Assembly: GCF_000412695.1 (NCBI RefSeq)
Contig: NC_021499.1
Location: 4,774,001-4,838,000, forward strand
Length of the DNA stretch: 64,000 bases
Reading direction: 5' to 3'
From: Pseudomonas resinovorans NBRC 106553
GTDB taxonomy: Bacteria; Pseudomonadota; Gammaproteobacteria; Pseudomonadales; Pseudomonadaceae
Shown here in pieces: positions 8,697 to 34,700 of the stretch. The stretch's first letter is position 1. Each line of letters begins with the position of its first letter. The notes below the pieces were generated by a model that searched no databases, was not told where the DNA came from, and saw only the letters and a program-made list of their open reading frames with translations. A program made the translations under genes and the position numbers.

Positions 8697-9692
8697 TCAC
8701 AGCTGCGCCACATGCCCCTCGGCCCGGTGGGCCCGCAGGTGCGGCAGCACCGCCGACAGCAGCGGTTCCTTGAAGGCCTCCTGGAAGCGATGGGCGAGGC
8801 CGGGGATCAGTTTCAGTTCCGAACCCTTGATATGGGCCGCCACGTGCACGCCATGCATGACCGGCAGCAACGGATCGGCGGTGCCGTGAATCACCAGGGT
8901 CGGTACCTGCAGGCGATTCAACAGGTCGACGCGGCTGGGCTCGGCGAGTATCGCCAGGATCTGGCGCTGCACGCCTTCCGGGTTGAACGAGCGGTCGTAG
9001 GAGCGCGCCGCCTGCTCCAGCAACTGTCCACGGTCATCGCTGACCTGGGGGCTGCCCAGGGCGGCCAGCAGGTCGGCCTGCTGGGTGATGGCCACGTCAC
9101 GGTTCGGCGCCTCGCGCCGGGCCAGCAGTTCCAGCAATGCCGGGCTCGGCGCCGGCAGGCCCTGGGCGCCGGAGCTGGTCATCACCAGGGTCAGGCTGAG
9201 CACCCGCTCGGGTGCGAGATCCGCCAGGTGCTGGGCGATCATCCCGCCCATGCTGGCGCCCAGCACGTGGGCGCGCTGGATACCCAGGGCATCCAGCAGG
9301 TGCAGGGAGTCCATGGCCATGTCGCGCAGGCCGTAGGGCGCAGACACCGGCAGACCGAGGCGATAGCGCACCACTTCGAAAGGCAGGTTCACCGAGGGTT
9401 CGGCGCCGGTCCAGGCGGAAAGGCCGACATCCCGGTTGTCGAACCGGATCACGCGAAAACCGCTCTGGCACAGACTCTGCACCACTTCGTCCGGCCAGTG
9501 GATGAGCTGTCCACCCAGGCCCATGATCAACAGCAGCGCCGGGTCCCGCTCGCCGCCGATGCTCTGGTAGGCCAGGCGCACCGGGCCCAGGTCGACGGTC
9601 TCCGTCGGCACGGCCACATCGCAACGCGCATTGGCAAAAGCAAAGGAAGGCAGGCCGCAAATGAGCACGGCCAGCAGGATCAGCACACGCAT
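8697..9692 (-). CDS. Exported alpha/beta-fold hydrolase
   Basis: A 331-residue alpha/beta hydrolase. A signal peptide is visible (residues 1-20, hydrophobic, ending AFA), so the protein should work in the periplasm or outside the cell. The nucleophile elbow is GASMG with Ser147; the likely acid is Asp273 in HGTADPLLP and the likely base His301 in GLAHRF. The oxyanion region MGLGGQ is at about 57-62, and RFDNRDVGLS at 83-92 matches the family's DxRGxGxS strand. This is a complete catalytic triad. Substrates in this large family range from esters to lactones and haloalkanes and cannot be inferred. It stands alone between the glpD repeat and the GMC operon. Confidence 0.85.
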   Translation of the reverse strand: MRVLILLAVLICGLPSFAFANARCDVAVPTETVDLGPVRLAYQSIGGERDPALLLIMGLGGQLIHWPDEVVQSLCQSGFRVIRFDNRDVGLSAWTGAEPSVNLPFEVVRYRLGLPVSAPYGLRDMAMDSLHLLDALGIQRAHVLGASMGGMIAQHLADLAPERVLSLTLVMTSSGAQGLPAPSPALLELLARREAPNRDVAITQQADLLAALGSPQVSDDRGQLLEQAARSYDRSFNPEGVQRQILAILAEPSRVDLLNRLQVPTLVIHGTADPLLPVMHGVHVAAHIKGSELKLIPGLAHRFQEAFKEPLLSAVLPHLRAHRAEGHVAQL

Positions 9693-9849: not shown

Positions 9850-11535
9850 TCAGGCGCCTACCTGGCGCCGGGGAGCATTGCTGCGCTGGGCGTTTTCCCA
9901 GTTGGCGGCCAGGCCCACCGGCAGGTCCTCGGGTTCCAGCGTCCGGCGACCGCGCACCAGGTCCGACGCTCGTTCGGCGAGCATGATGGTCGGTGCGTTG
10001 AGGTTGCCGTTGGGCTCGGTGGGGAACACCGACGAGTCGATCACCCGCAGTCCCTTGATGCCCCGAACCCGCAGTTCCGAATCCACCACCGCCAGGTCGT
10101 CCTCGCCCATGCGGCAGGAGCCGCAGGGGTGCATGGTGCTTTCCATGTTGGCGCGCACGAAGGCGTCGATCTCCTCGTCGGTCTGCACCTGCGGGCCGGG
10201 CGCCAGCTCCGCGCCACGGTAACGGTCCATGGCCGGCTGGCCGATGATCTCGCGGGTCAGGCGCACGCAGCGGCGGAAGCCTTCGCGGTCCTCTTCGCTC
10301 TCCAGGTAGTTGAAACGGATTTCCGGATGCACGTAGGGGTCGGCCGACAGCGCGCGGACATGGCCACGGCTCTTCGGCTTGTTGGGCCCCGTCAGCACCA
10401 TGAAACCATGGCCCTTGAACGGCTTGTCGCCGTCGTAGCGCATCGCCGCCGGCAGGAAGTGGAACTGGATGTCCGGCCAGCGCAGCCCCTGCTCGGAACG
10501 GATGAAGCCGCCGGCCTCGAAGTGGTTGCTGGCGCCCAGGCCGTCCTTGAACAGCAGCCAGCGCAGGCCGATCAGGGCCTTGCCCAAGAGGCTCATCTTG
10601 CCGTTGAGGGTAATGGGCTCCTTGCACTCGTACTGGATGTAGATCTCCGAGTGGTCCTGGAGGTTTTCCCCCACGCCCGGCAGGTGATGGCGCACCTCTA
10701 TGCCGGCCTTCTCCAGCACCTCGCGCGGGCCGATTCCGGAGCGCTGCAGCAGGTGCGGCGAGCCGATGGGGCCGGAGGACACCAGCACCTCGCGATTGCA
10801 GTACACGGTGTGGGTGGTGCCGCCCTGGTCGTACTCCACCCCCACCGCCTGCTTGCCGTCGAGGAGGATGCGCCGGGTCATGGCGTGGGTAACCACCGTC
10901 AGGTTGGGCCGCTCCATGGCCGGACGCAGGTAGGCGTTGGCGGTGGACCAGCGCACGCCGTCCTTCACCGTCATGTGCATGGCGCCAAAGCCTTCCTGCA
11001 TGTAGCCGTTGCAGTCGTCGGTCTTGATGTAGCCGGCCTCCGCGCCGGCCTCCACCCAGGCGCCATACAGAGGGTTCTGCATGTTGTTGCCGTTGTTGGT
11101 GGCCAGGGGCCCGCTGGCACCGCGGTAGTCGTCGCCGCCGAACTTGTAGTGCTCCGCGCGCTTGAAGTACGGCAGGCAGTTGCGATAGCCCCAGTTCTTC
11201 GCCCCCAGGCTTTCCCACTCGTCGAAGTCGTAGGCGTGGCCACGGATGTAGACCAGGCCGTTGATCGACGACGAGCCACCCAGCACCTTGCCGCGCGGGC
11301 AGTGCAGGCGGCGGTTGTCGAGGTGCGGTTCGGCCGCCGTCTCGTAGCGCCAGTTGTACTTCTTGGTGTTCATCGGGATGGAGAAGGCGCTGGGCATCTG
11401 GATCAGCACGCTGCGGTCGCTGCCGCCGAATTCCAGGACCAGCACCGAGGTGCCGGCGTCCTCGGTCAGGCGGTTGGCCAGGACGCAGCCGGCCGAGCCC
11501 GCACCGATGATGATGTAGTCGTAGCGCTTATTCAT
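9850..11535 (-). CDS. GMC-family alcohol dehydrogenase, BetA-like
   Basis: A 561-residue FAD-dependent GMC oxidoreductase, close in length and motifs to choline dehydrogenase BetA. It should oxidise a primary alcohol to an aldehyde. The FAD-binding GAGSAG is at 11-16, the GMC signature is in [19 protein letters not shown] (about 82-100), and the catalytic histidine and asparagine lie in HPCGSCRMG (about 469) and NGNLNAP (about 509). The ATG at 11535 overlaps the NCS1 transporter stop by eight bases, so it is the last gene of a five-gene unit with an aldehyde dehydrogenase and a ureohydrolase. There is no betI or betT here. The company of a ureohydrolase argues for a guanidino alcohol rather than choline, which is inference. 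Confidence 0.88.
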
Positions 11536-13009
11536 TGCTGTAGCCCTTTGCGGTGAGGCCCAGGGCCTCTGTCTTGCGATCGTTGCCCTTCGGGTAGGCA
11601 CCCCAGGCCAGGTGGGCGGCCAGTACGCGGGTCAGCGCGTAGTGCACCACCCCGGCCAGCAGGCAGGACGGCAGGGAAGCGGTGGCGAAGGTGAAGAAGG
11701 TGGTGTTGGCCAGGGTCTGCGGGTTGAACACCACGATGTAGATGACGAAGCCCGCCACCAGTGCCACCAGGGCCGCCGGGTTGAACCCGCGCCAGAAGTG
11801 GAATGGCGACTGCTCACCCTCGGTGTAGAGGTGGCGCAGGTTCAGGCGCTGGCGGCGGAGGAAGAAGTAGTCGGCGATGCCGATGCCCGCCAGGGCGCTG
11901 TTCAGGGCCGAGGTCCAGACCAGGAAGATGAAGAAGCCGTCATAGATACCCGGGGCGAACAGCACGATCAGCGCGGGGGCCAGGCAGAACAGCACCACCA
12001 GCCATTCCCAGCTCATGTCCCGCAGCTTCTGCCCCACCACCTGGCGCAGGCCGACGATGGAGGTGTAGAGGATATTCACCATGCTGGTGACGTTGGCGAA
12101 GGCCACGAAGCCCAGGGCGATGACGCCGAAGGTCAGGCCGCCGATGCGGGTCATCCACACCGTCGGGTCGCTGTCGCCCAGCGCGGCGGCGGCCAGCAGG
12201 CCCACCACTTCGCCCAGGGCGGCGGCACCGAAGATGCCGATGATGTTCGGCCAGTACGAGGTGCGCTGGTTCTTCGACAGGCGCGCCAGGTTGCCAACAT
12301 AGGGCCACCAGGAGAAACCGGCGGCCATGTTCACCTCGACGGCGATCATGAAGTTGACCCGGTTATCGTCGAACGGCGCGTCCAGCGCGGGCATGGCCAT
12401 CAGCTCGGAGAAGGCGTGCTCGCTGAGGATCATGTAGAACATCACCCCCATGATCACCACCAGGGCCGGCGCCACGATCATGTTGAACACCTTGATCGAG
12501 GTGGGCCCCTTGGCCACCACGAAGCCGGTCAGGACGATGGCGAAGAAGCCCGACGCCAATACCAGCCAGCCGTTGGCGTCGGTCTTGTGCTCCGACACCA
12601 GGCCGGAAAGGCCGTCGATGGAGCGGCCGAACATCAGCCCCAGCACCGCCAGCCAGCCCATGGTCAGGAACACCACCGCCAGCACGTACACCAGCCGGCT
12701 GCCATTGCCGCCGAACATGCTGCGCAGGAAGGTGAACTGCTCGGTGCCGTACTTGCCGCAGGGCACGCAGGTGGCGAAGGTGGTCAGTAGTACCCCGAGG
12801 ATATTGCCGATGACGATGGCGGCGATGCCCTGCTTGGGCCCGACGAACAGGGCCGTGGCGCCGCCGATGAGGAAGGCCCAGGTGGCGATGGCCAGGGCCG
12901 AGTTGGCGTAGGTGAATTCCCAGAAGCCCCACATGCGTTCGTTGGGCAGCAGCGGCGTGTCGCCGCGCTCGGCTTCCAGGCCGTGATTGACGGGTTCCTG
13001 ATGGGCCAT
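11528..13009 (-). CDS. NCS1-family (purine/cytosine permease-type) transporter
   Basis: A 493-residue polytopic inner-membrane protein with about twelve hydrophobic segments. The layout resembles the nucleobase:cation symporter-1 family: an N-terminal [20 protein letters not shown] helix, then GNILGVLL, and a [24 protein letters not shown] segment that carries the conserved aromatic-rich substrate region. Known NCS1 substrates are nucleobases, hydantoins, allantoin, thiamine and related nitrogen compounds. The start ATG lies three bases after the stop of a 57-residue membrane protein gene, and its end overlaps the GMC start. This coupling suggests it imports the substrate of the operon. The substrate itself cannot be read out. 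Confidence 0.88.
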
Positions 13010-13012
13010 GGC

Positions 13013-13186
13013 TCAGTACCCCCAGAGGTAGAAGCCGACGACCAGGACCAGCGTCATCAGGGTGGTGGCGATGTAGTCGACGGCGTTCAACGCCCCCGGC
13101 CACGCCTTCAGTTCTTCCAGCTGTTCGTAGACGCGGATGCGTCTTTCCAGTTCTTGCGCACGCTCGATATCGGGTTGGCTGTTCAT
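13013..13186 (-). CDS. Small single-helix membrane protein next to the NCS1 gene
   Basis: A 57-residue protein that I do not recognise by name. Residues 1-35 are charged and helical (DIERAQELERRIRVYEQLEE), and residues 36-57 form one hydrophobic helix ending in a short GFYLWGY tail. It looks like a one-pass inner-membrane protein. I take the ATG at 13186; an earlier frame start is not supported. The stop codon is three bases before the transporter start, so translation is probably coupled. Other secondary transporters have small partner proteins in the same place (DUF485 with ActP, DUF997 with PanF). A similar accessory role for an NCS1 carrier is inference from position and size. Confidence 0.75.
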   Translation of the reverse strand: MNSQPDIERAQELERRIRVYEQLEELKAWPGALNAVDYIATTLMTLVLVVGFYLWGY

Positions 13187-13285
13187 CTGGGCATCACCTC
13201 TAGGGGTTCTTGTTCTTGAAATTCGATGCATCCCGGCCAATCAGGGCCGCCGCCCGAAGGCGACGGCACGCTAGTGCCCAGCTCC

Positions 13286-14794
13286 TCAGGGCAGTGTGAT
13301 CCACACGGCTTTGGTTTCCAGCAGGTAATCCAGCTGTTCCGACCCGAGGTCCTTGCCATAGCCGGACTGCTTGTAGCCGCCGAAAGGCATGGAGGGGTCG
13401 AGGGTGCTGTGGGCGTTGACGTAGACGGTGCCGGCCCGCAGTTTCGGGATCAGGCCGTGCACGCGACCGAGGTCTTTGGAGTAGAGCGCCGCGGCCAGGC
13501 CGAAAGCGGAATCGTTGGCCAGGGCCAGGGCCTCGTCCTCGCTGTCGAAGGGCGCGGTCACCAGCACCGGGCCGAAGATCTCCTCCTGGACGATGCGCAT
13601 GTCGTTGCGGCAGTTGGCGAAGATGGTCGGCTGCACGTAGAAGCCGGGGCCTTCCACCGGCTCGCCGCCGTAGTACAGCTCCGCGCCTTCGGCCTTGCCG
13701 GTGGCGATGTACTCCAGCACCCGCTGCTGTTGCTGGCGCGACACCATGGGGCTGATGAAGCAGTCCGGGTCCAGGCCGGGGGCGATCTTCAGCGTCGCGG
13801 TGTAGGCGGCCAGTTCGCGCAGGAACTCGGCGTACACGCTGCGGTGCACATAGGCGCGGGTGCCCGCGTCGCAGACCTGGCCGGAGTTGAAGAACACGCC
13901 GTTGGCCACCGCCTGGGCCGCGGCCTTGATATCCGCATCGGCGAAGACGATCACCGGCGACTTGCCGCCCAGTTCCAGGGTCAGGCGCTTCATCTGGTCC
14001 ATGGCCGCCTTGCCCACGGAGCAGCCCACGGGGGTCGAACCGGTGAAGCTCAGCTTGTCGATGCCCGGGTGGCCGGACATCGCCGAGCCCACCACGCTGC
14101 CGCGCCCGCTGACGATGTTCACCACCCCGTCGGGGATGCCCGCTTCCTGGACCAGTTCGGCGAAACGCAGGGCCGAGAGGGAGGTCAGCTCGGCCGGCTT
14201 CACCACCACGGTGCAGCCCACCGCCAGGGCGGCGCCCAGCTTCCAGGCCATGGTTTGCAGGGGGAAGTTCCACGGCACGATGACGCCCACCACGCCCACC
14301 GGCTCCTTGCGCGTGTAGGCCAGGTAGTTGCCGGGCAGCGACGGTTCGACGGTGCGGCCGTGGATCTTGCTGGCCCAGCCGGCAAAGTAGCGGAAGGTAT
14401 CGATGGTGCCCTGGATATCCACGGCGCGGGCCTGGGCCACCGACTTGCCCATGTCGATGGATTCGATCTCGGCCAGCTCGTCGGCGTTGTCTTCGATCAG
14501 GTCGGCCAGGCGATGCAGCAGGCGCTCGCGCTCCAGGGGCTTGAGCTGGCTCCAGGGGCCGCCATCGAACTGCGCGCGGGCCGCCGCCACGGCGCGGTCC
14601 AGGTCCTCCACCGTGCCCATGGGAATGCGCGCGAGCACACCGCCGGTGGAGGGCTCGATCACCTCGGCGCTGGCGCCGTCGGCGGCATCCAGCCAGGCAC
14701 CGCCCACGAACAGCTTCTTGGCCTTGCCGAGGAAGCGCTGGGTGGCTTCGGATACGCCGAATTTCTGCAGATAGTCTTTAACCGTGTTGTCCAC
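13286..14794 (-). CDS. NAD(P)-dependent aldehyde dehydrogenase
   Basis: A 502-residue cytoplasmic aldehyde dehydrogenase that oxidises an aldehyde to the acid with NAD(P). The catalytic cysteine is Cys308 in FFNSGQVCDAG, the general base Glu274 in LTLELGG, and Asn176 lies in PWNFP. The C-terminal GGYKQSGYGKDLG oligomerisation motif is intact. Family members of this length include betaine aldehyde, gamma-guanidinobutyraldehyde (KauB) and phenylacetaldehyde dehydrogenases; the sequence alone does not decide. It lies between the ureohydrolase (57 bases upstream) and the small membrane protein gene. The natural reading is that it takes the aldehyde from the GMC enzyme and makes the acid that the ureohydrolase hydrolyses. 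Confidence 0.93.
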   Translation of the reverse strand: MDNTVKDYLQKFGVSEATQRFLGKAKKLFVGGAWLDAADGASAEVIEPSTGGVLARIPMGTVEDLDRAVAAARAQFDGGPWSQLKPLERERLLHRLADLIEDNADELAEIESIDMGKSVAQARAVDIQGTIDTFRYFAGWASKIHGRTVEPSLPGNYLAYTRKEPVGVVGVIVPWNFPLQTMAWKLGAALAVGCTVVVKPAELTSLSALRFAELVQEAGIPDGVVNIVSGRGSVVGSAMSGHPGIDKLSFTGSTPVGCSVGKAAMDQMKRLTLELGGKSPVIVFADADIKAAAQAVANGVFFNSGQVCDAGTRAYVHRSVYAEFLRELAAYTATLKIAPGLDPDCFISPMVSRQQQQRVLEYIATGKAEGAELYYGGEPVEGPGFYVQPTIFANCRNDMRIVQEEIFGPVLVTAPFDSEDEALALANDSAFGLAAALYSKDLGRVHGLIPKLRAGTVYVNAHSTLDPSMPFGGYKQSGYGKDLGSEQLDYLLETKAVWITLP

Positions 14795-14851
14795 TGTCTG
14801 TTCCTCGTCGCCGGCCCCCCTGCGAGGCCCGGCTGCTGGGTGGGCCGCGTC

Positions 14852-15829
14852 TCAGCGGTTGCGGGCGCGTTCGTGGAAGATGAAGCCGATGCTGTTCATC
14901 AGCAGTTGCGCCGCGAGGATCGACGTGGCGCCGGTGGGGTCATAGGCGGGCGCGACCTCCACCAGGTCCATGCCGACCACGCGTCCCTGGCTGCGGCGGG
15001 CCAGCGCCTGGATGATTTCCAGCACCTCGTAGTAGAGGAAGCCGCCGTGGCTGGGCGTGCCGGTGCCGGGGGCGATGGAGGGGTCGAAGCCGTCGATGTC
15101 GATGGTGATGTAGTAGTCCAGGCCTTCCGGAATCTTCGCCATTACCCCTTCGACGCCCAGGCGGCGCACGTCGCGCACCGAGAGGATCTGCGAGCCGGCG
15201 GCGCGCGCGGCGTCGTAGTCGTCGCGGTTGGAGGAAGACACGTTGCGGATGCCCATCTGGGTCATGCCGACGATATGGTCCAGTTCGGAGGCGCGGCGCA
15301 GCGGGTTGCCGTGGCCGTAGCGCACGCCGTGGCGTTCGTCGACGAAGTCCAGGTGCGCGTCGAAGTGCACGATGTGGATCGGCGCGTGACCCTCGAAGGC
15401 CTTGATCACCGGGGCGTGGATCGAGTGGTCGCCGCCCAGCACCACCGGCATGGCGCCGGAAGCGAGGATCTTGCGCACGGCGAACTCGATGTTGTCGTTG
15501 CTGGTGGCCATGTCGGTGTGGACGATGTCCGCGTCCCCCACATCCATCATGCGCACCTGGTCCTGGGTCAGGTAGAGCGCGTCGTCCTCGTGGTCGTAGG
15601 CACCGGAGTGGCCGAAAGAGAAGAGCGTGGACGCTTCGCGGATGCTGCGCGGTCCGAAGCGCGCACCGGAGCGCCATTGGGTACCCATGTCGTTCGGTGC
15701 GCCGAGGATGGCGACGTCGGCATCGATGTCATCCCAATCGGTGCAGATCGGGGATTTGGCAAAGGTGCAGTGACCCACGAATGGGAGATTCAACCGCCCG
15801 GACTCATACGCGTTCTTCGGCATTTTCAT
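14852..15829 (-). CDS. Agmatinase-family ureohydrolase, substrate unknown
   Basis: A 325-residue enzyme of the arginase/agmatinase family, which uses a binuclear metal centre to hydrolyse a guanidino group and release urea. All metal ligands are present: His135 in GGDHS, Asp157, His159 and Asp161 in DAHLD, and Asp244 and Asp246 in TIDIDGFDP. The substrate-side loop reads APGTGTPSHGG, with Ser-His where many agmatinases have Glu followed by a hydrophobic residue. That difference suggests another substrate. The ATG at 15829 has GGAGG upstream; Met3 is an alternative. It is first in the operon with aldehyde and alcohol dehydrogenases and is divergent from a LysR gene. Guanidinoacetate is an attractive candidate because the next locus degrades glycine, but guanidinobutyrate, guanidinopropionate or agmatine are possible. 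Confidence 0.9.
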   Translation of the reverse strand: MKMPKNAYESGRLNLPFVGHCTFAKSPICTDWDDIDADVAILGAPNDMGTQWRSGARFGPRSIREASTLFSFGHSGAYDHEDDALYLTQDQVRMMDVGDADIVHTDMATSNDNIEFAVRKILASGAMPVVLGGDHSIHAPVIKAFEGHAPIHIVHFDAHLDFVDERHGVRYGHGNPLRRASELDHIVGMTQMGIRNVSSSNRDDYDAARAAGSQILSVRDVRRLGVEGVMAKIPEGLDYYITIDIDGFDPSIAPGTGTPSHGGFLYYEVLEIIQALARRSQGRVVGMDLVEVAPAYDPTGATSILAAQLLMNSIGFIFHERARNR

Positions 15830-15926
15830 GCGCCTCCGTTTCTTGTTTTCTGTCGTCGGCGAACCGGCTTCGAATTCGCCGTTGCAGGAACTATGGGCGC
15901 GGGATTAATTTGGAAAAATGCAAAAC

Positions 15927-15948
15927 ATCAGATACTCAAATCGCTGAT
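15927..15948. promoter_or_regulatory. Candidate LysR-type operator
   Basis: ATCAG (15927-15931) and CTGAT (15944-15948) form an inverted repeat with a 12-base spacer in the 149-base divergent region between the ureohydrolase and LysR genes. The size and position are right for a LysR-type recognition site. No known consensus was matched. Confidence 0.4.
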
Positions 15949-15978
15949 AACGATGTATCCATCGACCGGGAGGCTCCC

Positions 15979-16890
15979 GTGATCCAGTTGCATGATGTCG
16001 ACCTGAAGCTCCTGCGAGTCTTCGCCACCATCGTCAAATGCGGGGGATTTTCCGCCGCCCAGGCCGCGCTCAACGCGGGCCAGTCCACCATCAGCGAACA
16101 GATGACCCACCTGGAGACCCGGCTCGGGGTCAAGCTCTGCCAGCGCGGCCGCAGCGGCTTCCGCCTCACCGAGCAGGGGGTGGCCATCCATGAGGCCACC
16201 CAGCGCCTGCTCTCGGCGGTGGAAACCTTCTGCATGGACGCCGACGTGCTCAAGCAACGCATCAGCGGCAAGCTCAACCTCGGCATCATCGACAGCACCC
16301 TCACCGACCGCGATTCCCCCCTGCCCCGCGCCACCCAGCGTTTCGTCTCCCGTGGGCACGACGTCCACCTCAGCGTCTACGTCGGCACGCCGGCGGAGCT
16401 TGAGGAGCGGGTGCTGGACAACCGCCTGCACCTGGCCATCGGGCACTTTCCCGCGCGCATCCCGGGCCTGGCCTACGACCCGCTCTACCGGGAGTCCCTG
16501 GGGCTCTACTGCGGGCGCCACCACCCATTGTTCGGCAGCGAGCTCGGCGGCAAGGCGCTGAAGGACGCCATAGTCGCGAGCCGGATCGTCGTGCGCGGCT
16601 ACATGCAGCAGTACGACCTGGACGTGCTCGGCGTGAGCAAGGCGGCGGCCACCGTGGACAACATCGAGGCACTGGCCATCCTGATCATTTCCGGCGCCTA
16701 CCTCGGCCTACTGCCGATGCACGTCGCCGAGCAGTGGGTACGCACCGGCGAGATGCGCCAGCTGTCCACCCAGGGCGATCACCTGGAATCGCCCTTCGAC
16801 GTCATCACCCGGCGCGGTGTGAGCCCGCCGATCCTCACGGCCTTCCTCGAAGACCTGACCGCCTGCACCAGCGGCGCAACCCGCAACTGA
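15979..16890 (+). CDS. LysR-family transcriptional regulator
   Basis: A 303-residue LysR-type regulator. The winged helix-turn-helix is at residues 5-64, with DLKLLRVFATIVKCGGFSA and the recognition part LNAGQSTISEQMTHLETRLG. The effector domain occupies the rest. I assign a GTG start at 15979: no in-frame ATG occurs near the domain start, and GGGAGG lies five to six bases upstream. The gene is divergent from the ureohydrolase operon, the classical arrangement of a LysR activator with its target, and a candidate inverted repeat lies between them. The gcsR start follows 21 bases after the stop, so this gene may be transcribed together with gcsR. The inducer is unknown. Confidence 0.88.
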   Translation: MIQLHDVDLKLLRVFATIVKCGGFSAAQAALNAGQSTISEQMTHLETRLGVKLCQRGRSGFRLTEQGVAIHEATQRLLSAVETFCMDADVLKQRISGKLNLGIIDSTLTDRDSPLPRATQRFVSRGHDVHLSVYVGTPAELEERVLDNRLHLAIGHFPARIPGLAYDPLYRESLGLYCGRHHPLFGSELGGKALKDAIVASRIVVRGYMQQYDLDVLGVSKAAATVDNIEALAILIISGAYLGLLPMHVAEQWVRTGEMRQLSTQGDHLESPFDVITRRGVSPPILTAFLEDLTACTSGATRN

Positions 16891-16911: not shown

Positions 16912-18450
16912 ATGCGCATCCACGTCACCTTCATCGACCGTGTCGGCATCACCCAGGAAGTCCTCGCCCTGCTCGGCGGACGCAACCTCAACCTCGAGGC
17001 GGTGGAAATGATCCCGCCCAACGTCTACATCGACGCCCCCGCCCTCGGCCCCGAAGTGCTCGACGAACTGCGCGACGCTCTCTACGCGGTGCAGGGCGTC
17101 AAGGACGTCACCCTGGTGGACATCCTCCCCGGCCAGCGCCGGCACCTGCAGCTGGACGCCCTGCTGGCCGCCATGACCGACCCGGTGCTGGCGGTGGATG
17201 GCGGCGGCCGCGTGCTGCTGGCCAACCCCTCGTTCGTGGCGCTCCACGGGCGCGACCCCACGGGCGAGCCGCTGTCCGGCCTGTTCGACGACCCCAACCT
17301 GGCCCGGACCCTGATCGAGCGCGGATTCCGCCTGCCCATGTGCGAGGTGGCCCTCAAGGACATCGCGCTGCTGCTGGACGCCACGCCGGTCAGCTCCGGA
17401 ACGGACGGCGGCGTACCGCTGATCGCCGGCGGCCTGCTGACGCTCTACCCGCCGAGCCGCATCGGCGAACGCCTGGCCTCCCTGCGCCACGAAGGTGGCG
17501 AGGGGCTGGAGAACCTGCTGGGCAAGTCGCCGCCGCTGAAGCAGCTCAAGGCGCGCCTGCGCAAGGTCGCCCGGCTGGACGCGCACTTGCTGATCCGGGG
17601 CGAAACCGGCACCGGCAAGGAACTGGTGGCCCGTGCCTGCCACACCCTGAGCGACCGCCGGGACGCCCCGTTCCTCGCGCTGAACTGCGCCGCATTGCCG
17701 GAAAGCCTCGCCGAAAGCGAACTCTTCGGTTACTCGGCGGGAGCCTTCACCGGCGCCCAGCGCGGCGGCAAGCCGGGCCTGCTGGAACTGGCCGACGGCG
17801 GCACGGTGTTCCTCGATGAAGTCGGCGAGATGTCCCCGTACCTGCAGGCCAAGCTGCTGCGTTTCCTCAGCGACGGCTGCTTCCGCCGGGTGGGCGGCGA
17901 CCGCGAAGTGCAGGTGAACGTGCGCGTGGTCGGCGCCACCCACCGGCCCCTGGAACGCATGGTCAGCGAAGGCGGCTTCCGCGAGGACCTGTTCTATCGC
18001 CTGAACGTGCTCAACCTCGACGTGCCGCCCCTGCGCGAACGCGGCCAGGACATCCTCCTGCTCGCCGAGCACTTCCTCGACCAGGCCTGCGCGCAGATCC
18101 AGCGGCCGCCCTGCCGCCTGGCCCCGGCCACCTACCCGGTACTGCTGGGCAACCCCTGGTCGGGCAACGTGCGCCAGCTGCAGAACGTGATCTTCCGGGC
18201 CGCCGCCATCAGCGAAAGCAACCTGATCGACTGCGACAACCTGGAACTCGCCGGTACCGCCCTCACCCCGCGCCAGGCCGACGCCCTGCAGGTCACCAGC
18301 CTGGAAGAAGCGGTGCAGGGCTTCGAGAAGGACTTGCTGCAGCAGCTCTATGCCGCCTTCCCCTCCACCCGGCAGCTGGCCGCCAGGCTGAATACATCCC
18401 ACACCGCCATCGGCCAGCGCCTGCGCAAGTACGGCATCCCCAGGGGCTAG
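16912..18450 (+). CDS. gcsR: TyrR-like sigma-54 enhancer-binding protein, GcsR
   Basis: A 512-residue activator of the TyrR family. It has an N-terminal ACT domain (about 1-72, starting MRIHVTFIDRVGITQEVL), a PAS-like segment (about 78-185), an AAA+ sigma-54 interaction domain with Walker A GETGTGKE (230-237), the sigma-54 contact motif GAFTGA (277-282) and Walker B near 296-305, and a TyrR-type helix-turn-helix at the end (LAARLNTSHTAIGQRLRKYGI). An intact GAFTGA shows that it can activate sigma-54, unlike E. coli TyrR. In P. aeruginosa the homologue GcsR activates the gcvH2-gcvP2-glyA2-sdaA-gcvT2 operon in response to glycine. The same operon follows here, with a consensus -24/-12 promoter and matching palindromes. 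Confidence 0.93.
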   Translation: MRIHVTFIDRVGITQEVLALLGGRNLNLEAVEMIPPNVYIDAPALGPEVLDELRDALYAVQGVKDVTLVDILPGQRRHLQLDALLAAMTDPVLAVDGGGRVLLANPSFVALHGRDPTGEPLSGLFDDPNLARTLIERGFRLPMCEVALKDIALLLDATPVSSGTDGGVPLIAGGLLTLYPPSRIGERLASLRHEGGEGLENLLGKSPPLKQLKARLRKVARLDAHLLIRGETGTGKELVARACHTLSDRRDAPFLALNCAALPESLAESELFGYSAGAFTGAQRGGKPGLLELADGGTVFLDEVGEMSPYLQAKLLRFLSDGCFRRVGGDREVQVNVRVVGATHRPLERMVSEGGFREDLFYRLNVLNLDVPPLRERGQDILLLAEHFLDQACAQIQRPPCRLAPATYPVLLGNPWSGNVRQLQNVIFRAAAISESNLIDCDNLELAGTALTPRQADALQVTSLEEAVQGFEKDLLQQLYAAFPSTRQLAARLNTSHTAIGQRLRKYGIPRG

Positions 18451-18721: not shown

Positions 18722-19099
18722 ATGAGCACACTGCGTTTCACTCCCGAACACGAATGGCTGCGCGTCGAAGCCTCCGGCGAACTGACCGTCGGCATCACCA
18801 GCTTCGCCCAGGAAGCACTGGGCGACGTGGTGTTCGTGCAGCTGCCCGACGCGGGCCGCTACGAGCAAGGCGCCGAAGTGGCCGTGCTGGAGTCGGTGAA
18901 GGCCGCCAGCAACATCGCCATGCCGCTGGACGGCGAAGTGATCGAAGTGAACCAGGCCCTGGCCGACAACCCCGAGCTGGTCAACGAAGCCCCCATGGAC
19001 GGCGGCTGGTTCTTCCGCATCCGCCCGGACAACCCCGAGGCACTCGCCAGCCTGATGGACCAGGCCGGCTACGACGCCTTCCTCGCCGACCACGCCTGA
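18722..19099 (+). CDS. gcvH: Glycine cleavage system H protein
   Basis: A 125-residue carrier protein whose lipoyl arm shuttles the aminomethyl group between the P, T and L proteins. The lipoylation site is Lys60 in LESVKAAS, in the expected hairpin. The length is standard. The start at 18722 follows AGAGGAAG and matches family N-termini (LRFTPEHEWLR). It is the first gene of a six-gene unit (gcvH, gcvP, glyA, sdaA, gcvT, lipA) under a sigma-54 promoter. In Pseudomonas this is the inducible, catabolic copy of the glycine cleavage genes, distinct from a housekeeping set elsewhere. Lipoate needed by Lys60 may be supplied by the lipA copy at the end of the locus. Confidence 0.96.
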   Translation: MSTLRFTPEHEWLRVEASGELTVGITSFAQEALGDVVFVQLPDAGRYEQGAEVAVLESVKAASNIAMPLDGEVIEVNQALADNPELVNEAPMDGGWFFRIRPDNPEALASLMDQAGYDAFLADHA

Positions 19100-19114
19100 G
19101 CCGGAGGAACCGCC

Positions 19115-21979
<2,865 letters not shown>

Positions 21980-22043
21980 GCACCGCTGGAACGACCTCTA
22001 CACGGTAATTGCCGCCCCTTATCGAACAAGAAGGAAACCGACC

Positions 22044-23297
22044 ATGTTCCACAAGAGCCTGACCCTCTCCGATTTCGACCCCGCCCTGGCCGAGGCCATC
22101 CGCCAGGAAACCGCCCGCCAGGAAGACCACATCGAGCTGATCGCCTCGGAGAACTACACCAGCCCGCAGGTGATGGAAGCCCAGGGCTCGGCGCTGACCA
22201 ACAAGTACGCCGAAGGCTACCCGGGCAAGCGCTACTACGGTGGTTGCGAGTTCGTCGACAAGGTCGAGCAGTTGGCCATCGATCGTGCCAAGCAGCTGTT
22301 CGGCGCCGACTACGCCAACGTCCAGCCCCACGCCGGTTCCCAGGCCAACAGCGCCGTCTACCTGGCCCTGCTGTCGGCCGGTGACACCATCCTCGGCATG
22401 AGCCTGGCCCACGGCGGTCACCTGACCCACGGCGCCAGCGTCTCCTCCTCCGGCAAGCTGTACAACGCCGTGCAGTACGGCATCGACGCCAACGGCCTGA
22501 TCGACTACGACGAAGTCGAGCGCCTGGCCGTGGAGCACAAGCCGAAGATGATCGTCGCCGGCTTCTCCGCCTACTCCAAGACCCTCGACTTCCCGCGCTT
22601 CCGCGCCATCGCCGACAAGGTGGGTGCGCTGCTGTTCGTCGACATGGCCCACGTCGCCGGCCTGGTGGCCGCCGGCCTGTACCCGAACCCGCTGCGCTAC
22701 GCCGACGTGGTCACCACCACCACCCACAAGACCCTGCGCGGTCCGCGCGGCGGCCTGATCCTGGCCAAGGCCAACGAAGAGATCGAGAAGAAGCTCAACT
22801 CCGCCGTGTTCCCCGGTGCCCAGGGTGGCCCGCTGATGCACGTGATCGCGGCCAAGGCGGTGTGCTTCAAGGAAGCCCTGGAGCCCGGCTTCAAGGAGTA
22901 CCAGGCCCAGGTCATCAAGAACGCCCAGGCCATGGCCAAGGTGTTCATCGAGCGCGGCTACGACGTGGTCTCCGGCGGCACCGACAACCACCTGTTCCTG
23001 GTCAGCCTGATCAAGCAGGGCAAGACCGGCAAAGAGGCGGACGCCGCCCTCGGCCGCGCCGGCATCACCGTGAACAAGAACGCCGTGCCCAACGACCCGC
23101 AGTCGCCCTTCGTCACCTCCGGCGTGCGCATCGGTACCCCGGCCATCACCAGCCGCGGCTTCAAGGAAGCCCAGAGCCTGGAACTGGCCGGCTGGATCTG
23201 CGACATCCTCGACCACCTCGGCGATGCCGACGTCGAGGCCCAGGTGGCCCGGCAAGTGGCGGCGCTCTGCGCACGCTTCCCGGTGTACCCGGCCTGA
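22044..23297 (+). CDS. glyA: Serine hydroxymethyltransferase
   Basis: A 417-residue pyridoxal-phosphate enzyme that interconverts glycine plus methylene-tetrahydrofolate with serine. The cofactor lysine is Lys229 in [14 protein letters not shown], the same number as in E. coli GlyA. In this operon it uses the methylene-tetrahydrofolate made by GcvTHP to turn a second glycine into serine, which SdaA then deaminates to pyruvate. It lies 64 bases after gcvP and 17 bases before sdaA. This is probably a second glyA beside a housekeeping copy, as in P. aeruginosa glyA2. Confidence 0.97.
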
Positions 23298-23314
23298 CCG
23301 AGCGGAGACGGACC

Positions 23315-24691
<1,377 letters not shown>

Positions 24692-24702
24692 TTTTTTTCG
24701 CG

Positions 24703-24735
24703 CCCTCTCCCCTTGGGAGAGGGCTGGGGTGAGGG
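24703..24735. repeat. Hairpin repeat in the sdaA-gcvT gap
   Basis: CCCTCTCCC and GGGAGAGGG flank CTT, followed by CTGGGGTGAGGG. This type of element is widespread in Pseudomonas intergenic regions. Inside an operon it could stabilise the upstream message or reduce readthrough into gcvT and lipA. A partial relative lies near 34274-34292. Confidence 0.7.
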
Positions 24736-24774
24736 AAGTCCCACCCCGCTTGGAATTCAACTTTGGAGCCTTAC

Positions 24775-25893
24775 ATGACTGACCTCGCCAAGACCCCGCT
24801 GCACGCCCTGCACCTCGAACTCGGCGCGCGCATGGTGCCCTTCGCCGGCTACGACATGCCGGTGCAATACCCCCTCGGCGTGCTCAAGGAGCACCTGCAC
24901 ACCCGCGCGCAGGCCGGCCTGTTCGACGTCTCCCACATGGGCCAGATCATCCTCCGTGGCGAGAACGCCGCCCGCGCCCTGGAAAGCCTGGTGCCGGTGG
25001 ACATCCTCGACCTGCCGGCGGGCACCCAGCGCTACGCGATGTTCACCGACGAGCACGGCGGCATCCTCGACGACCTGATGGTGGCCCGCCTCGCGGACGA
25101 CGAACTGTTCCTGGTGGTCAACGCCGCCTGCAAGGACCAGGACCTGGCCCACCTCAAGCAGCAGATCGGCGAGCAATGCGAGATCGAGCCGCTGTTCGAA
25201 TCCCGCGCCCTGCTGGCCCTGCAGGGCCCGGCCGCCGCCGAGGTGCTCGGCCGTCTGGCGCCGGAAGTGCAGAAGATGACCTTCATGCAGTTCGGCAGCG
25301 TGCGCCTGGAAGGCGTGGAGTGCTTCGTCAGCCGCTCCGGCTACACCGGCGAGGACGGCTACGAGATTTCCGTGCCCGTGGCCCAGGCCGAAGCCCTGGC
25401 CCGCACCCTGCTGGCCCAGCCGGAAGTCCAGCCCATCGGCCTCGGCGCCCGCGACTCGCTGCGCCTGGAAGCCGGCCTGTGCCTCTACGGCCACGACATG
25501 AGCCAGGCCACCACCCCCATCGAAGCCGGCCTGGCCTGGGCCATCTCCAAGGCCCGCCGCGCCGACGGCCTGCGCGCCGGCAACTTCCCCGGCGCGGATC
25601 GCATCCTGGCTCACCAGCGCGACGGCGTGGCGGCCAAACGCGTCGGCCTGCTGCCCAGCGGCCGTGCCCCGGTTCGCGAAGGCACCCAGTTGGTCAACGC
25701 CGAGCAGCAGGTCATCGGTGAAGTCACCAGCGGCGGTTTCGGCCCCAGCCTGGGCGGCCCACTGGCCATGGGCTTCATCGACAGCCGCTACGCGACACTG
25801 GACACCGAAGTATTCGCCCTGGTGCGCGGCAAGCCACTGCCCATGCGCGTGGTGCGCACGCCCTTCGTACCCCAGCGCTACTACCGCGGCTGA
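24775..25893 (+). CDS. gcvT: Aminomethyltransferase, glycine cleavage T protein
   Basis: A 372-residue tetrahydrofolate-dependent enzyme that releases ammonia from aminomethyl-GcvH and forms methylene-tetrahydrofolate. It begins with [27 protein letters not shown], the T-protein signature, followed by FDVSHMGQI with the conserved aspartate region. The C-terminal part has the GCV_T barrel motif ending [12 protein letters not shown]. The start at 24775 has GGAG upstream. It follows sdaA after an 83-base gap with a hairpin repeat and precedes lipA by 37 bases. Together with gcvH and gcvP it completes the system apart from the shared L protein (dihydrolipoamide dehydrogenase), which is not in this window. 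Confidence 0.96.
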
Positions 25894-25930: not shown

Positions 25931-26923
25931 ATGACTGAAACCCAGATCGCGTCGCGTCCGCAGCCCGTAGAGGCCGGCGTGAAACTGCGCGGCGCCGAAA
26001 AGGTGGCGCGCATTCCGGTGAAGATCATTCCAACCGAGGAGGTACCGCGCAAACCGGAGTGGATTCGCGTACCCATCGCTTCCTCGCCGGAGGTCGCACG
26101 GATCAAGCAACTGCTGCGCAAGCACAAGCTGCACAGCGTCTGCGAGGAAGCCTCCTGCCCGAACCTGGGCGAATGCTTCGCCGGCGGCACCGCCACCTTC
26201 ATGATCATGGGCGACATCTGCACCCGCCGCTGCCCGTTCTGCGACGTCGGCCACGGCCGGCCGAAGCCGCTGGATGCGGACGAGCCGAAGAACCTGGCCA
26301 TCGCCATCGCCGACCTGCGCCTGAAGTACGTGGTGATCACCTCGGTGGACCGCGACGACCTGCGCGACGGCGGTGCCCGGCATTTCGCCGACTGCCTGCG
26401 GGAAATCCGCTCCCTGTGCCCCGGCATCCAGCTGGAAACCCTGGTGCCGGACTACCGCGGGCGCATGGACGTGGCCCTGGACATTACCGAGCGGGAGCCA
26501 CCGGATGTGTTCAACCACAACCTGGAAACCGTGCCGCGCCTGTACAAGGCCGCACGCCCGGGCTCGGACTTCGAGTGGTCACTGGACCTGCTGGAGAACT
26601 TCAAACGGCGCGTGCCCCAGGTGCCGACCAAGTCCGGCCTGATGCTGGGCCTGGGCGAGACCGATGACGAAGTGATCGAAACGATGCAGCGCATGCGCGA
26701 GCACGGTATCGACATGCTCACCCTCGGCCAGTACCTGCAACCCTCGCGCAGCCACCTGCCGGTACAGCGTTTCGTCCACCCCGACACTTTCGCCTGGTTT
26801 GCCGAAAAAGGTGCCGGGATGGGCTTTTCGAATGTCGCCTCGGGCCCGCTGGTGCGTTCTTCCTACCACGCCGACCAGCAGGCCCACGGCCTAGGGGAGC
26901 AACTCCCGCCGATCAGGCAATGA
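25931..26923 (+). CDS. lipA: Lipoyl synthase
   Basis: A 330-residue radical SAM enzyme that inserts two sulfurs into octanoyl-lysine to make lipoyl groups. The auxiliary cluster ligands are Cys71, Cys76 and Cys82 ([12 protein letters not shown]), and the radical SAM cluster ligands are Cys97, Cys101 and Cys104 (CTRRCPFC). The C-terminal RSSYHADQQ carries the conserved serine ligand of the auxiliary cluster. It closes the glycine cleavage operon, so this copy may supply lipoate to GcvH during growth on glycine; a housekeeping lipA next to lipB is expected elsewhere. Its last 11 bases overlap the end of the convergent RTX gene. Confidence 0.94.
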
Positions 26924-29900
26924 TGCTTTCGGCCGTCAAGGTCGACACCCCCACTAGGGAAATCTCGAACTCTGCCGCGGCGTCCGCATCGGTACTGCCC
27001 GAGAGGATGCCGTTGGCAAAGCGAAGCTGTCCCGTGGCGTCGGTGGCACTGAACGCCGCCGAACCAATGAAGCTGAACGCGTCATTGGCCACTGTACCGG
27101 GCCGCGCATCGATGGCGGACAGGACGATCCTGTCGCCGTCGCTGCTGCGGAAATCAGTGATCACGTCACGCAGCGCACCAATCCCCATGTCGCTCAGGGC
27201 AGCAAAGGCGAACAGGTCGGCCCCCGCCCCACCGGTCAACTGGTCCGTGCCGCCACCGCCGACCAGCACGTTCGCGGCGGCGTTGCCGGTCAGCCGGTCG
27301 TTGAAGGCGCTGCCAGTCAGGTTCTCGAATGCCAGCAGGGTGTCGGTGCCAGAACCACCGGTGGCCTGGGCGGTAGTCACAGCCAGGCTGGCCGTCACGC
27401 CCGCAGTGGCAAAGGCATAGGACGCGGTGTCCACGCCCGCGCCGCCATTCAGCACGTTGTTGCCGGCGCCCGCGTAGATCACGTTGTTCAGAGCATTGCC
27501 GGTGCCATTGGCCACACCGGCGGCCATCAGGCGCAGATGCTCGACATTGGCGCCCAGGGTATAGGCCGACAGGTAGCTGTAGACCGTATCGGAGCCACCG
27601 GTAGCCAACACCGCGTTGGTCTCCTGGACCACGTCGCCGACACTATCCACGTAGTAAGTATCGGAACCGTCGCCACCGATCATGATGTCGTTGCCGGCAC
27701 CACCGTTGAGGATATCGTTGCCCGCCTGGCCATTCAGGACGTTGGCGGCCGCGTTACCGGTCAACCGGTCGTTGAAGGCGCTGCCGGTCAGGTTCTCGAA
27801 TGCCAGCAGGGTGTCGGAGCCCGAACCGCCCGTGGCCTGGGCGGTAGTCACCGCCAGGTTGGCCGTCACGCCAGCGGTGGCAAAGGCATAGAACGCGGTG
27901 TCCACGCCCGCGCCGCCATTGAGCACGTTGTTGCCGGCGCCCGCGTAGATCACGTTGTTCAGAGCGTTGCCGGTGCCATTGGCCACGCCGGCGGCCATCA
28001 GGCGCAGGTGCTCGACATTGGCGCCCAGGGTATAGGACGACAGGTAACTGTAGACCGTATCGGAGCCACCGGTGGCCAGCACCGCATTGGTCTCCTGGAC
28101 CACGTCGCCGACGCTATCCACGTAGTAGGCATCGGAACCGTCCCCTCCGATCATGGTGTCGTTGCCGGCACCACCATTGAGGATATCGTTGCCCGCCAGG
28201 CCGCTCAGGACGTTGGCGGCCGCGTTGCCAGTCAGCCGATCGTTGAAGGCGCTGCCAGTCAGGTTCTCGAATGCCAGCAGGGTGTCGGAGCCCGAACCGC
28301 CCGTGGCCTGGGCGGTGGTCACCGCCAGGTTGGCCGTCACGCCAGCGGTGGCAAAGGCATAGGACGCGGTGTCCACGCCCGCGCCGCCATTCAGCACGTT
28401 GTTGCCGGCGCCCGCGTAGATCACGTTGTTCAGAGCATTGCCGGTGCCATTGGCCACGCCGGCGGACATCAGGCGCAGGTGCTCGACATTGGCGCCCAGG
28501 GTATAGGACGACAGGTAGCTGTAGACCGTATCGGAGCCACCGGTAGCCAACACCGCATTGGTCTCCTGGACCACGTCGCCGACGCTATCCACGTAGTAGG
28601 CATCGGAACCGTCCCCTCCGATCATGGTGTCGTTGCCGGCACCACCATTGAGGATATCGTTGCCCGCCAGGCCACTCAGGACGTTGGCGGCCGCGTTGCC
28701 GGTCAACTGGTCGTTGAAGGCACTGCCGGTCAGGTTCTCGAATGCCACCAGGGTGTCGGAGCCCGAACCACCAGTGGCCTGGGCGGTGGTCACCGCCAGG
28801 CTGGCCGTTACGCCCGCAGTGGCAAAGGCATAGGACGCGGTGTCCACGCCCGCGCCGCCATTGAGCACGTTATTGCCGGCACCCGCATAGATCACGTTGT
28901 TCAGAGCGTTGCCGATACCGTTGGCCGCGCCACTGGAGAGCAGGCGCAGGTTCTCGAGATTGGTGCCCAGGGTATAGGACGCCAGGTAGCTGTAGACGGT
29001 ATCGGAACCACCACTGGCCAGTACGGCGTTGGTTTCCGAAACCACGTCGTCGACGCTGTCCACGTAGTAGGTGTCGGAACCATCCCCACCAATCATGGTG
29101 TCGTTACCGCCGCCGCCATTGAGTACATCGTTGCCAGCCCCGCCATTCAACTGGTCAAGGCCCTCCCCCCCGATCAGCGTGTTGGCCAGGGCGTTACCAG
29201 TGAGCGTGTCGCCCCGGTCCGTCCCGATGACGCCTTCGATCGAGATGAAGGTATCGCTACCGTGACTGGTGAACTGGGACGCTGTCTGGGACAAGTCGAC
29301 GGTGACGCTGCTGGTGGAGAATTCGTAGGAGACGTAATCGAATCCGCCAGCGCCATTGAAGACGTTGTTGCCGAGGTTGCTGAACAAGGTGTTGTTGCCA
29401 GCGTTACCGGTTCCATTGATGTTGCCGGTGCCCGCCAACACCAGGTTCTCGAAGTTGTTCAGCAGTGTGTAGTCGAAGCCTGCCTGGACGGTGTCGACCC
29501 CTTCGTTCGCCAGTTCGTACAGGGCGTCCTGGGCGTCGATGACGTAGGTATCGTCACCCGTACCACCGTAGAGGCTATCGGTTCCGCCACTGCCATAGAG
29601 GAGATCGTTGCCCGCCAGGCCGCGGATGATGTCGTTGCCGGTGGAGCCGTAGAGGGAGTCGTTGCCCGCCGTGCCGACCATGTTGTCGTTGCCGGCGGTA
29701 CCGCTGACCACGCTGAAACGATAATAGCCCGCGACCCCCGTGTTCCCCGGAGTGGTTTCCAGGTCGAGAATCGCTGACTGGTTGCCGGACTGAGACAACT
29801 CGTACCAGGACGTACCGTCCCCGGTGGAGTAGCCGGCACGCGCCACGGTCCCACCCAAGCCATTGGTGCCGCCACTGGCGCTACCGGTGGTCCAGTTGAT

Positions 29901-30383
29901 GTTCTCGTAGCGGAAAATCACATCGAAGTTGCCGTTGCCGGTGCCGACCAACTGGAGCTGGAAGGCATTGAGCTTGTCGATTTTCGAGTTGTAGTAACCC
30001 ACATCGTCCCAGGTGACGGTCAGCACGCCGTTGCCGGTCGAATCCAGGTCGTAGTGGACCAGGTTGGTACCCTTGGAAGTGCCGCCCGGCGTGGCTGTGG
30101 TCGTGCCACCACGGGTATCCACGTCCGCGAAGAAGGGCGCGATCATGGCTCGCGAGGAGTTCTGCATGCCGTAAGGCGTGTAGGTGGATTCGCCAGAGCC
30201 GAAGGTGATGCTGCCGTTGGTGTTTACAAAGAGACTGGTGTAGTTCGTACCGAAGAAGTTGATCCCGGCGGCACCGAAGATCGAACTGACATCGATGCTC
30301 GACGAATAGCCATCGTCATTTCGCGTCACCTGGTTCTCGCCGAAACCCGAAGCTCCGCCCAATCCACCGACCAAATTTGCCAT
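26913..30383 (-). CDS. Large secreted NIDO-RTX calcium-binding repeat protein
   Basis: A 1156-residue protein without a classical signal peptide. Residues about 40-225 resemble a NIDO (nidogen-like) domain, with [11 protein letters not shown] and [14 protein letters not shown] nonapeptides of the type GNDxLYGxxG follow (about 227-282). Four tandem 157-residue units occupy about 415-1040, each pairing [19 protein letters not shown] RTX turns with a [11 protein letters not shown] segment and a conserved [10 protein letters not shown] motif. The last 95 residues ([15 protein letters not shown], then a serralysin-like tail) are typical of uncleaved C-terminal type I secretion signals. AAGGAG precedes the ATG. 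A complete type I exporter lies 4.4 kb upstream on the same strand. An extracellular structural or adhesive role is likely; no protease motif was seen. Confidence 0.88.
27262..29140. repeat. Four tandem 471-bp repeats inside the RTX gene
   Basis: The same landmark bases recur at 27682, 28153, 28624 and about 29095, a strict 471-base period (157 codons). The two middle copies are nearly identical; the outermost copies have diverged more, especially the one nearest the N-terminus (29.0 kb side). This points to recent expansion by unequal recombination, and copy number may vary between strains or be misassembled in short-read data. Confidence 0.93.
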
Positions 30384-34479: not shown

Positions 34480-34700
34480 AGGGGGGCGAGCGGCATGGAT
34501 GCCGCGAGAGCCGCGCAGGGCCATGGATGGCCCTTCGCGGCGGCCCCCCGGCGCAAGGATGGAGCGAGGGGAGTTTGGCGCAGCCAAACCCGCATGGTGG
34601 GGCAAGCCCTCTTGGTTACTTCTGGGTGGTTCGGCACCCCGACGACTGCCAGAAGTGACTCGCCCGGGAGGGCGAAACAGAAACCCAATGCCCACTCGGC
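34480..34700. other. Structured intergenic element with multiple hairpins
   Basis: Four base-paired blocks occur in 160 bases: CGGCAT/ATGCCG (34491-34504), GGGCCAT/ATGGCCC (34518-34533), GTTTGGC/GCCAAAC (34573-34589), and a longer pair TTACTTCTGG with CCAGAAGTGA flanking a C/G-rich loop (about 34617-34659). No credible protein is encoded. I recall similar TTACTTTTGG...CCAAAAGTGA elements in other Pseudomonas intergenic regions, without a confirmed function. It may be a mobile repeat or a small structured RNA. It follows a repeat element and precedes the 3' end of the type I outer-membrane gene. Confidence 0.55.

Follow-up and report, generated by a model that had tools for sequence, protein, structure and literature searches.

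The stretch of DNA analysed here, 64,000 nucleotides long and called the window throughout, comes from Pseudomonas resinovorans NBRC 106553 (contig NC_021499.1, positions 4,774,001 to 4,838,000), whose genome of 6.48 Mb lies in two contigs. Between positions 9850 and 16890 it carries an operon of five co-directional genes, encoding a ureohydrolase, an aldehyde dehydrogenase (ALDH), a membrane protein of 57 residues, an NCS1 transporter and a GMC dehydrogenase, together with a divergent gene for a LysR-type regulator. This arrangement had been proposed in an initial annotation of the window and was borne out, all six genes being intact at the positions collected in Table 1; successive gaps of 57, 99 and 3 bases separate the operon genes, the last two of which (NCS1 and GMC) overlap by 8 bases. 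Pfam and NCBIfam searches agreed with the families that had been assigned (Arginase, PF00491; Aldedh, PF00171; Transp_cyt_pur, PF02133; GMC_oxred, N and C; LysR, PF00126 and PF03466). In these searches the query for the 57-residue protein was one residue short (from 13183), as it was in its homologue search, and the GMC and LysR frames were 22 and 94 residues too long at their starts; the LysR queries used in tblastn were two residues short.

The operon is a combination of known enzyme families which was not found described in the literature searched, and the reading to which we give about an even chance is that it serves to degrade a two-carbon guanidino alcohol, of which 2-guanidinoethanol is the most probable, converting it via guanidinoacetate to glycine and urea. 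The reading is based on the gene set, its conservation, an operator-like sequence, the neighbouring glycine genes and the subfamily of the ureohydrolase, and from these we infer every substrate, the order of the steps, the direction of transport, the binding of the LysR protein and its inducer. Guanidinoethanol would be imported by the NCS1 transporter, with the 57-residue protein as its partner, and oxidized by the GMC enzyme to guanidinoacetaldehyde and by the ALDH to guanidinoacetate, two steps which would parallel the conversion of choline to betaine, with a guanidinium group where choline carries trimethylammonium. The ureohydrolase would then split guanidinoacetate into glycine and urea, the urea passing to the urease present in the same genome and the glycine being consumed by the neighbouring glycine-cleavage genes, while the LysR protein would control the operon through a conserved operator. 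Such a scheme accounts for all the operon genes and their neighbours.

Table 1. Features of the operon and of the adjoining glycine genes in the window
Feature	Coordinates	Strand	Remarks
Ureohydrolase	15823-14852	-	323 aa; alternative ATG at 15829 possible
ALDH	14794-13286	-	502 aa; GTG start
Membrane protein	13186-13013	-	57 aa
NCS1 transporter	13009-11528	-	493 aa
GMC dehydrogenase	11535-9850	-	561 aa
LysR-type regulator	15979-16890	+	303 aa; GTG start; divergent from ureohydrolase gene
Putative LysR-type operator	15954-15931	-	two overlapping dyads, 15954-15940 and 15942-15931; from gap alignment
CATAGT motif, likely -10 element of operon promoter	15895-15890	-	from gap alignment
TyrR-like sigma-54 activator, GcsR-like	16912-18450	+	TyrR 439 bits (cut-off 576); TypR helix-turn-helix 80 (cut-off 30)
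gcvH	18722-19099	+	125 aa; named by eye and position
gcvP	19115-21979	+	passes NCBIfam cut-off
glyA	22044-23297	+	passes NCBIfam cut-off
sdaA	23315-24691	+	passes NCBIfam cut-off
gcvT	24775-25893	+	passes NCBIfam cut-off

Species-representative genomes were scanned with an alignment of 13 ureohydrolases; of the 327 stretches that matched, the best 80 (L025-L104) are the named loci, in which genes were mapped by tblastn and counted as present at 45% identity or more. Conservation of the neighbourhood, on which the initial annotation had made its proposal depend, was found in 77 of the 80, which hold the LysR, ureohydrolase, ALDH, NCS1 and GMC genes together, so that the grouping is not due to chance. 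As regards the other three, L051 and L065 reach contig ends and L073 has the ureohydrolase and LysR genes only. The named loci include Pseudomonas, Caballeronia, Paraburkholderia, Azoarcus, Aromatoleum, Serratia, Citrobacter, Buttiauxella and Zobellella, and in one of them (L092, Azoarcus sp. Aa7) the ureohydrolase gene is found at the opposite end of the operon, after a porin gene. The operon also occurs on three plasmids, of Ensifer canadensis, Roseateles sp. XES5 (a record marked unverified) and Shinella, where the LysR gene shows only 37% identity. A close orthologue of the ureohydrolase, which is closest to Pseudomonas ureohydrolases, was present in 14 of 95 sampled relatives (13 of 18 within the genus, its own genome counted); across the phylum, 398 genomes yielded two close orthologues, 21 relatives at 65-78% and three weaker ones above the limit. 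In a Gemmobacter variant, two short-chain dehydrogenase/reductase (SDR) proteins and a deacetylase replace the ALDH. The partners thus also differ at L131:9976-12370 (Gemmobacter) and L137:9963-12384 (Roseovarius), where a pair of SDR genes and one of the polysaccharide-deacetylase family come after the ureohydrolase gene.

The ureohydrolase belongs to the PF00491 superfamily (267.6 bits). The complete set of metal ligands claimed for it is in place (H135, D157, H159, D161, D244 and D246, with E291 as well), and so is the TPSHGG loop that had been singled out as unusual, the form in GbuA and GpuA of P. aeruginosa being TPEIGG. Although these two enzymes have the same fold and metal ligands, and their relatives in the P. 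resinovorans genome likewise lie beside a LysR-type gene, the operon enzyme is 36.8% identical to GbuA and 34.5% to GpuA (38.6% to a Deinococcus agmatinase chain) and differs from both in its specificity residues. S71 occupies the position of GbuA R72, a residue which is reported to reach over from the neighbouring subunit and cap the carboxylate (PMC9772407), and R166 that of GbuA M161 and GpuA Y157, both reported as substrate-recognising (PMC10833137), while the five residues after S71 form a loop insertion absent from the two enzymes. For the guanidine hydrolase GdmH, the guanidine-specific residues named in the Synechocystis protein are T97 and W305 (PMC11410670). When 115 ureohydrolases were aligned (81 at 83% identity or more, 25 at 60-82%, 8 paralogues, and one 51% relative left ungrouped), R166, N196, S260, H261 and H74 were present in all 106 relatives of at least 60% identity, and the first four of these in none of the 8 paralogues. 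The TPSHGG loop and the loop insertion likewise marked all 106 and none of the 8. Judged by its sequence, the enzyme is a separate subfamily with its own active-site letters, and it misses the cut-off of the PRK02190 agmatinase subfamily (205.8 against 302).

These active-site letters are not confined to loci with the GMC and ALDH genes. In a quick tree of 65 sequences, the GMC-linked ureohydrolases fell into two groups, requiring three changes, and one of these groups (four plasmid sequences) was nested in GMC-free, mostly alphaproteobacterial ureohydrolases. Genes for amino-acid ABC importers adjoin the ureohydrolase gene in three of six GMC-free plasmid loci, one locus having a urea-carboxylase-associated gene, and a GpuA-like gene (58-65% identity to GpuA) lies near it in four of 22 GMC-free loci (L132, L137, L152 and L153), the other neighbours of these 22 being variable (ten loci read by eye only). 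Since the signature enzyme stands beside importers or GpuA-like genes without the two dehydrogenases, its substrate is likely to be a short guanidino acid, which would place the two oxidations before the ureohydrolase.

As for the dehydrogenases, the GMC enzyme passes the BetA model TIGR01810 (777.4 against 732.1 bits), is 53% identical to the BetA of its own genome and has as its closest solved chain 9lq0, named oxygen-dependent choline dehydrogenase; a 63% plasmid relative, the one annotated relative examined, lies in a betIBA operon. Guanidinoethanol and choline have a common HO-CH2-CH2-N frame, and the match to the BetA model, together with the relative in a betIBA operon, fits a substrate built on HO-CH2-CH2-N+. 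The BetA and BetB enzymes likewise work in turn, as a GMC enzyme and an ALDH, on a two-carbon cationic alcohol, but here the pair is joined to a ureohydrolase, an NCS1 transporter and a LysR gene; the GMC gene is not linked to betB or betI, a betBA pair being found elsewhere in the genome (at L145). Moreover, the ALDH (586 bits with PF00171; catalytic Cys in FNSGQVCDAG, by inspection) fails the betaine aldehyde dehydrogenase (BADH) model TIGR01804 (510.5 against a cut-off of 668.6); StyD and BADH were its top-scoring NCBIfam models, and all 25 families shown, of 43, were under their cut-offs. After the GMC gene, at 8697-9692 (-), the window has an alpha/beta hydrolase gene, macrolide-esterase-like but far under those cut-offs, which is also found in L025, L026 and L048.

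The NCS1 transporter exceeds the PF02133 cut-off (89.4 against 23.5 bits), stays under that of TIGR00800 (110 against 353) and has no relative by sequence in the PDB at E values up to 1. Two forms of it occur in the named loci, NCS1a in 25 and NCS1b in 53, and tblastn found the 57-residue protein in all 25 of the former and in none of the latter. Every one of its 37 homologues is 57 residues long; the protein has a single membrane span, as judged by eye, and no match in Pfam or NCBIfam. Its distribution suggests that it is a partner of the NCS1a transporter, and it may be a small transporter subunit. Inspection by eye of 11 NCS1b loci gave no common small open reading frame ahead of the transporter gene, where NCS1a has one. 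The transporter seems to have been swapped in L026, which has NCS1b in a locus otherwise resembling the window. An NCS1-like importer also accompanies a ureohydrolase for a guanidine compound in the metformin hydrolase cluster (MetT, MetCaCb; PMC11271267); in contrast to that cluster, the operon contains GMC and ALDH genes, lacks genes for nickel chaperones and has a single ureohydrolase gene instead of paired subunits.

With regard to regulation, the LysR gene is present in 79 of the named loci, although in L073 and L076 it is 51-52% identical, lies on the opposite strand and is perhaps not an orthologue. Alignment of the gap between the LysR and ureohydrolase genes, for the window and 20 chosen loci, showed two overlapping dyads and a CATAGT motif that gamma- and betaproteobacteria have in common, the remainder of the gap having drifted, and the dyads are the predicted LysR operator controlling the operon. 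In the window and 18 loci, searches at the Rfam gathering thresholds gave neither a guanidine riboswitch nor any other RNA ahead of the ureohydrolase gene. The only Rfam match in the window, a TwoAYGGAY RNA (34483-34547, +; 48.8 bits), is far from the operon.

The carbon chain, which the initial annotation had left open by listing guanidinoethanol and guanidinoacetate among several test substrates, is narrowed by the genes around the operon. Those at 18722-25893 represent a glycine-to-pyruvate route adjoining it, and the sigma-54 activator gene in between may be called GcsR-like from its position and kinship. The order is that of gcsR and the gcs2 operon in P. aeruginosa (PMC4894688), for which the available part of the source mentions no adjoining ureohydrolase operon. 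The distance between gcvP and the ureohydrolase gene is 3.3-3.6 kb in all 14 Pseudomonadaceae genomes with the orthologue. A core glycine gene (gcvH, gcvP, glyA, sdaA or gcvT) is in the stretch at 53 of the 80 named loci, and at 59 when TyrR-like, cycA and DadA-like genes are admitted; gene by gene, the counts were 45 for gcvH, 30 for glyA, 12 for gcvP, 1 for sdaA and 0 for gcvT, with 50 for the TyrR-like gene, 16 for cycA and 4 for DadA-like genes. The glycine genes are placed on the LysR side in the window and in the P. fluorescens group, and, along with cycA, on the GMC side in the P. putida group. In Azoarcus sp. Aa7 the ureohydrolase gene, gcvH and gcvP follow one another on one strand, then glyA, a CycA-like permease gene and sdaA, and in Zobellella (L096) glyA comes beyond the GMC gene and one unassigned open reading frame. 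In addition, a glycine riboswitch was found in four of six scanned Burkholderiaceae loci, ahead of a D-amino-acid-dehydrogenase-like gene adjoining the LysR gene (two aptamers each in L038, L054 and L055; one found in L064). By chance, gcvP would be expected near about one locus in 100 (an estimate from some three gcvP copies per 6 Mb), and more often for the wider gene list; related loci are not independent, and about five glycine-gene arrangements were counted. As a control, the three paralogous ureohydrolase loci of the same genome had no gcv, glyA or cycA match within 6-7 kb on each side; at one of them there is a sigma-54 activator that matches the TyrR-like protein at 43%. Taken with the kinship of the GMC enzyme to choline dehydrogenase, these neighbours point to a two-carbon chain. 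Beyond the glycine genes, at 26913-30383 (-), the window encodes a 1156-residue protein with many near-identical repeats rich in glycine and aspartate.

Several observations weigh against guanidinoacetate and glycine as the intermediate and product. The reaction predicted for the ureohydrolase is that of glycocyaminase (guanidinoacetase, EC 3.5.3.2), which converts guanidinoacetate to glycine and urea, and we know of no sequence for this enzyme, nor of any sequenced guanidinoacetate-specific one. The human ureohydrolase GDAH is reported not to cleave guanidinoacetate (PMC9772407), and SpeB2 of S. meliloti, for which 4-guanidinobutanoate is reported as a substrate (PMC7268258), might fall in the 70% ureohydrolase group, which would tell against the reading. 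The enzyme passes the NCBIfam agmatinase equivalog TIGR01230 (189.5 against 174.3 bits), and Arg166 is also present in the Deinococcus agmatinase sequence. Regarding the glycine context, gcvP was near the ureohydrolase gene in none of 22 genomes outside the Pseudomonadaceae, lying at least 184 kb away on the same contig in four and on another contig or absent in 18, and the linkage in Pseudomonas may go back to just one or two events and have been inherited since. No glycine gene occurs in the stretch at 21 of the 80 named loci, some of which end at contig ends; these include three Enterobacterales loci (L050, L062 and L068), and none of seven neighbours across the three is glycine- or guanidine-related. 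Furthermore, the CycA-like permease of L092 is under the CycA cut-off, the window and eight plasmid loci have no glycine or guanidine riboswitch, and GcsR boxes in the window are not above chance (five with at most three mismatches, against 4.2 expected).

A longer chain, in which 4-guanidinobutanol (for instance that of leonurine-type esters) or 3-guanidinopropanol would be taken through guanidinobutyrate or guanidinopropionate to gamma-aminobutyrate (GABA) or beta-alanine, is unlikely. The breadth of the GMC and ALDH families and the alpha/beta hydrolase gene downstream of the operon in the window and three named loci would speak for it. Nevertheless, the genome has elsewhere a GbuA of 96% identity and a 55% relative of GpuA, besides a fourth ureohydrolase; the specificity residues of GbuA (R72, M161) and GpuA (Y157) are replaced in the operon enzyme, and GABA or beta-alanine would leave the glycine-cleavage, glyA, cycA and glycine-riboswitch neighbours unexplained.

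It seems quite unlikely that the scheme is right and its substrate wrong, the true one being some other amidino or guanidino compound, whose two-carbon arm would end up as glycine or something closely related. The neighbours fix the product better than the substrate, and NCS1 carriers are known for ring compounds; nevertheless, no observation speaks for any other named compound.

Similarly improbable is the reverse order, where the ureohydrolase would cut guanidinoethanol to ethanolamine and urea, and the GMC enzyme and ALDH would oxidize ethanolamine to glycine. Although it likewise ends in glycine, and a variant of human GDAH is reported to have cleaved guanidinoethanol weakly (PMC9772407), ureohydrolases with the same active-site letters are found without the two dehydrogenases; three such plasmid loci have amino-acid ABC importers alongside, and 4 of 22 loci have GpuA-like genes nearby, as expected of a guanidino-acid hydrolase.

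An ordinary agmatinase loosely grouped with a spare choline-oxidation pair, for which the TIGR01230 and TIGR01810 cut-offs and the database names speak, is very unlikely given a set complete in 77 of 80 loci and kept on three plasmids, an active site unlike those of GbuA, GpuA and the Deinococcus agmatinase, and a separate betBA pair which scores higher, over both model cut-offs at 921 and 758 bits (BetA 921.7). The separate GbuA and betBA in the genome also make a plain guanidinobutyrate or choline role for the operon unlikely. The scheme of alcohol import, two oxidations and a urea cut put forward in the initial annotation is consequently supported in outline by the conserved gene set, the ureohydrolase active site and these separate systems, its substrates and the order of its steps remaining at the level of prediction.

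The guanidinoethanol-to-glycine pathway was not found in the open-licence PubMed Central texts searched, subscription papers being mostly outside their scope. A soil-adaptation study has similar gene names, and the part of it available neither ties its loci to the operon nor excludes them (PMC8905175).

A possible source of the alcohol is hinted at by a side module. In seven of the 80 named loci (L027, L029, L059, L061, L076, L078 and L081), a MocR gene and a xylose-isomerase-like TIM-barrel gene stand beside the operon; on the plasmids L165 and L166 the same pair is accompanied by an aminoethylphosphonate-like (PhnST-like) ABC importer together with a HisN-like phosphatase. L169 has the first genes of the module, its stretch ending before the TIM-barrel gene. 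The aminoethylphosphonate and HisN model scores are under their cut-offs, and a phosphoester precursor is, on this showing, speculation. Lombricine and opheline are guanidinoethyl phosphagens of invertebrates. It is very doubtful, though conceivable, that the operon is the core of a salvage route for such phosphagens in soil, the side module importing the phosphoester and stripping it to free guanidinoethanol.

If the guanidinoethanol reading is true, one unrecognised route for nitrogen and carbon would take in several hundred genes (327 stretches) that at present go by the names agmatinase, choline dehydrogenase and cytosine permease. It would also provide a sequence for an enzyme that cleaves guanidinoacetate. 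Such an enzyme would be medically interesting, as guanidinoacetate is reported to build up in GAMT deficiency (PMC8917272). Finally, guanidino alcohols would be a nutrient for soil bacteria.

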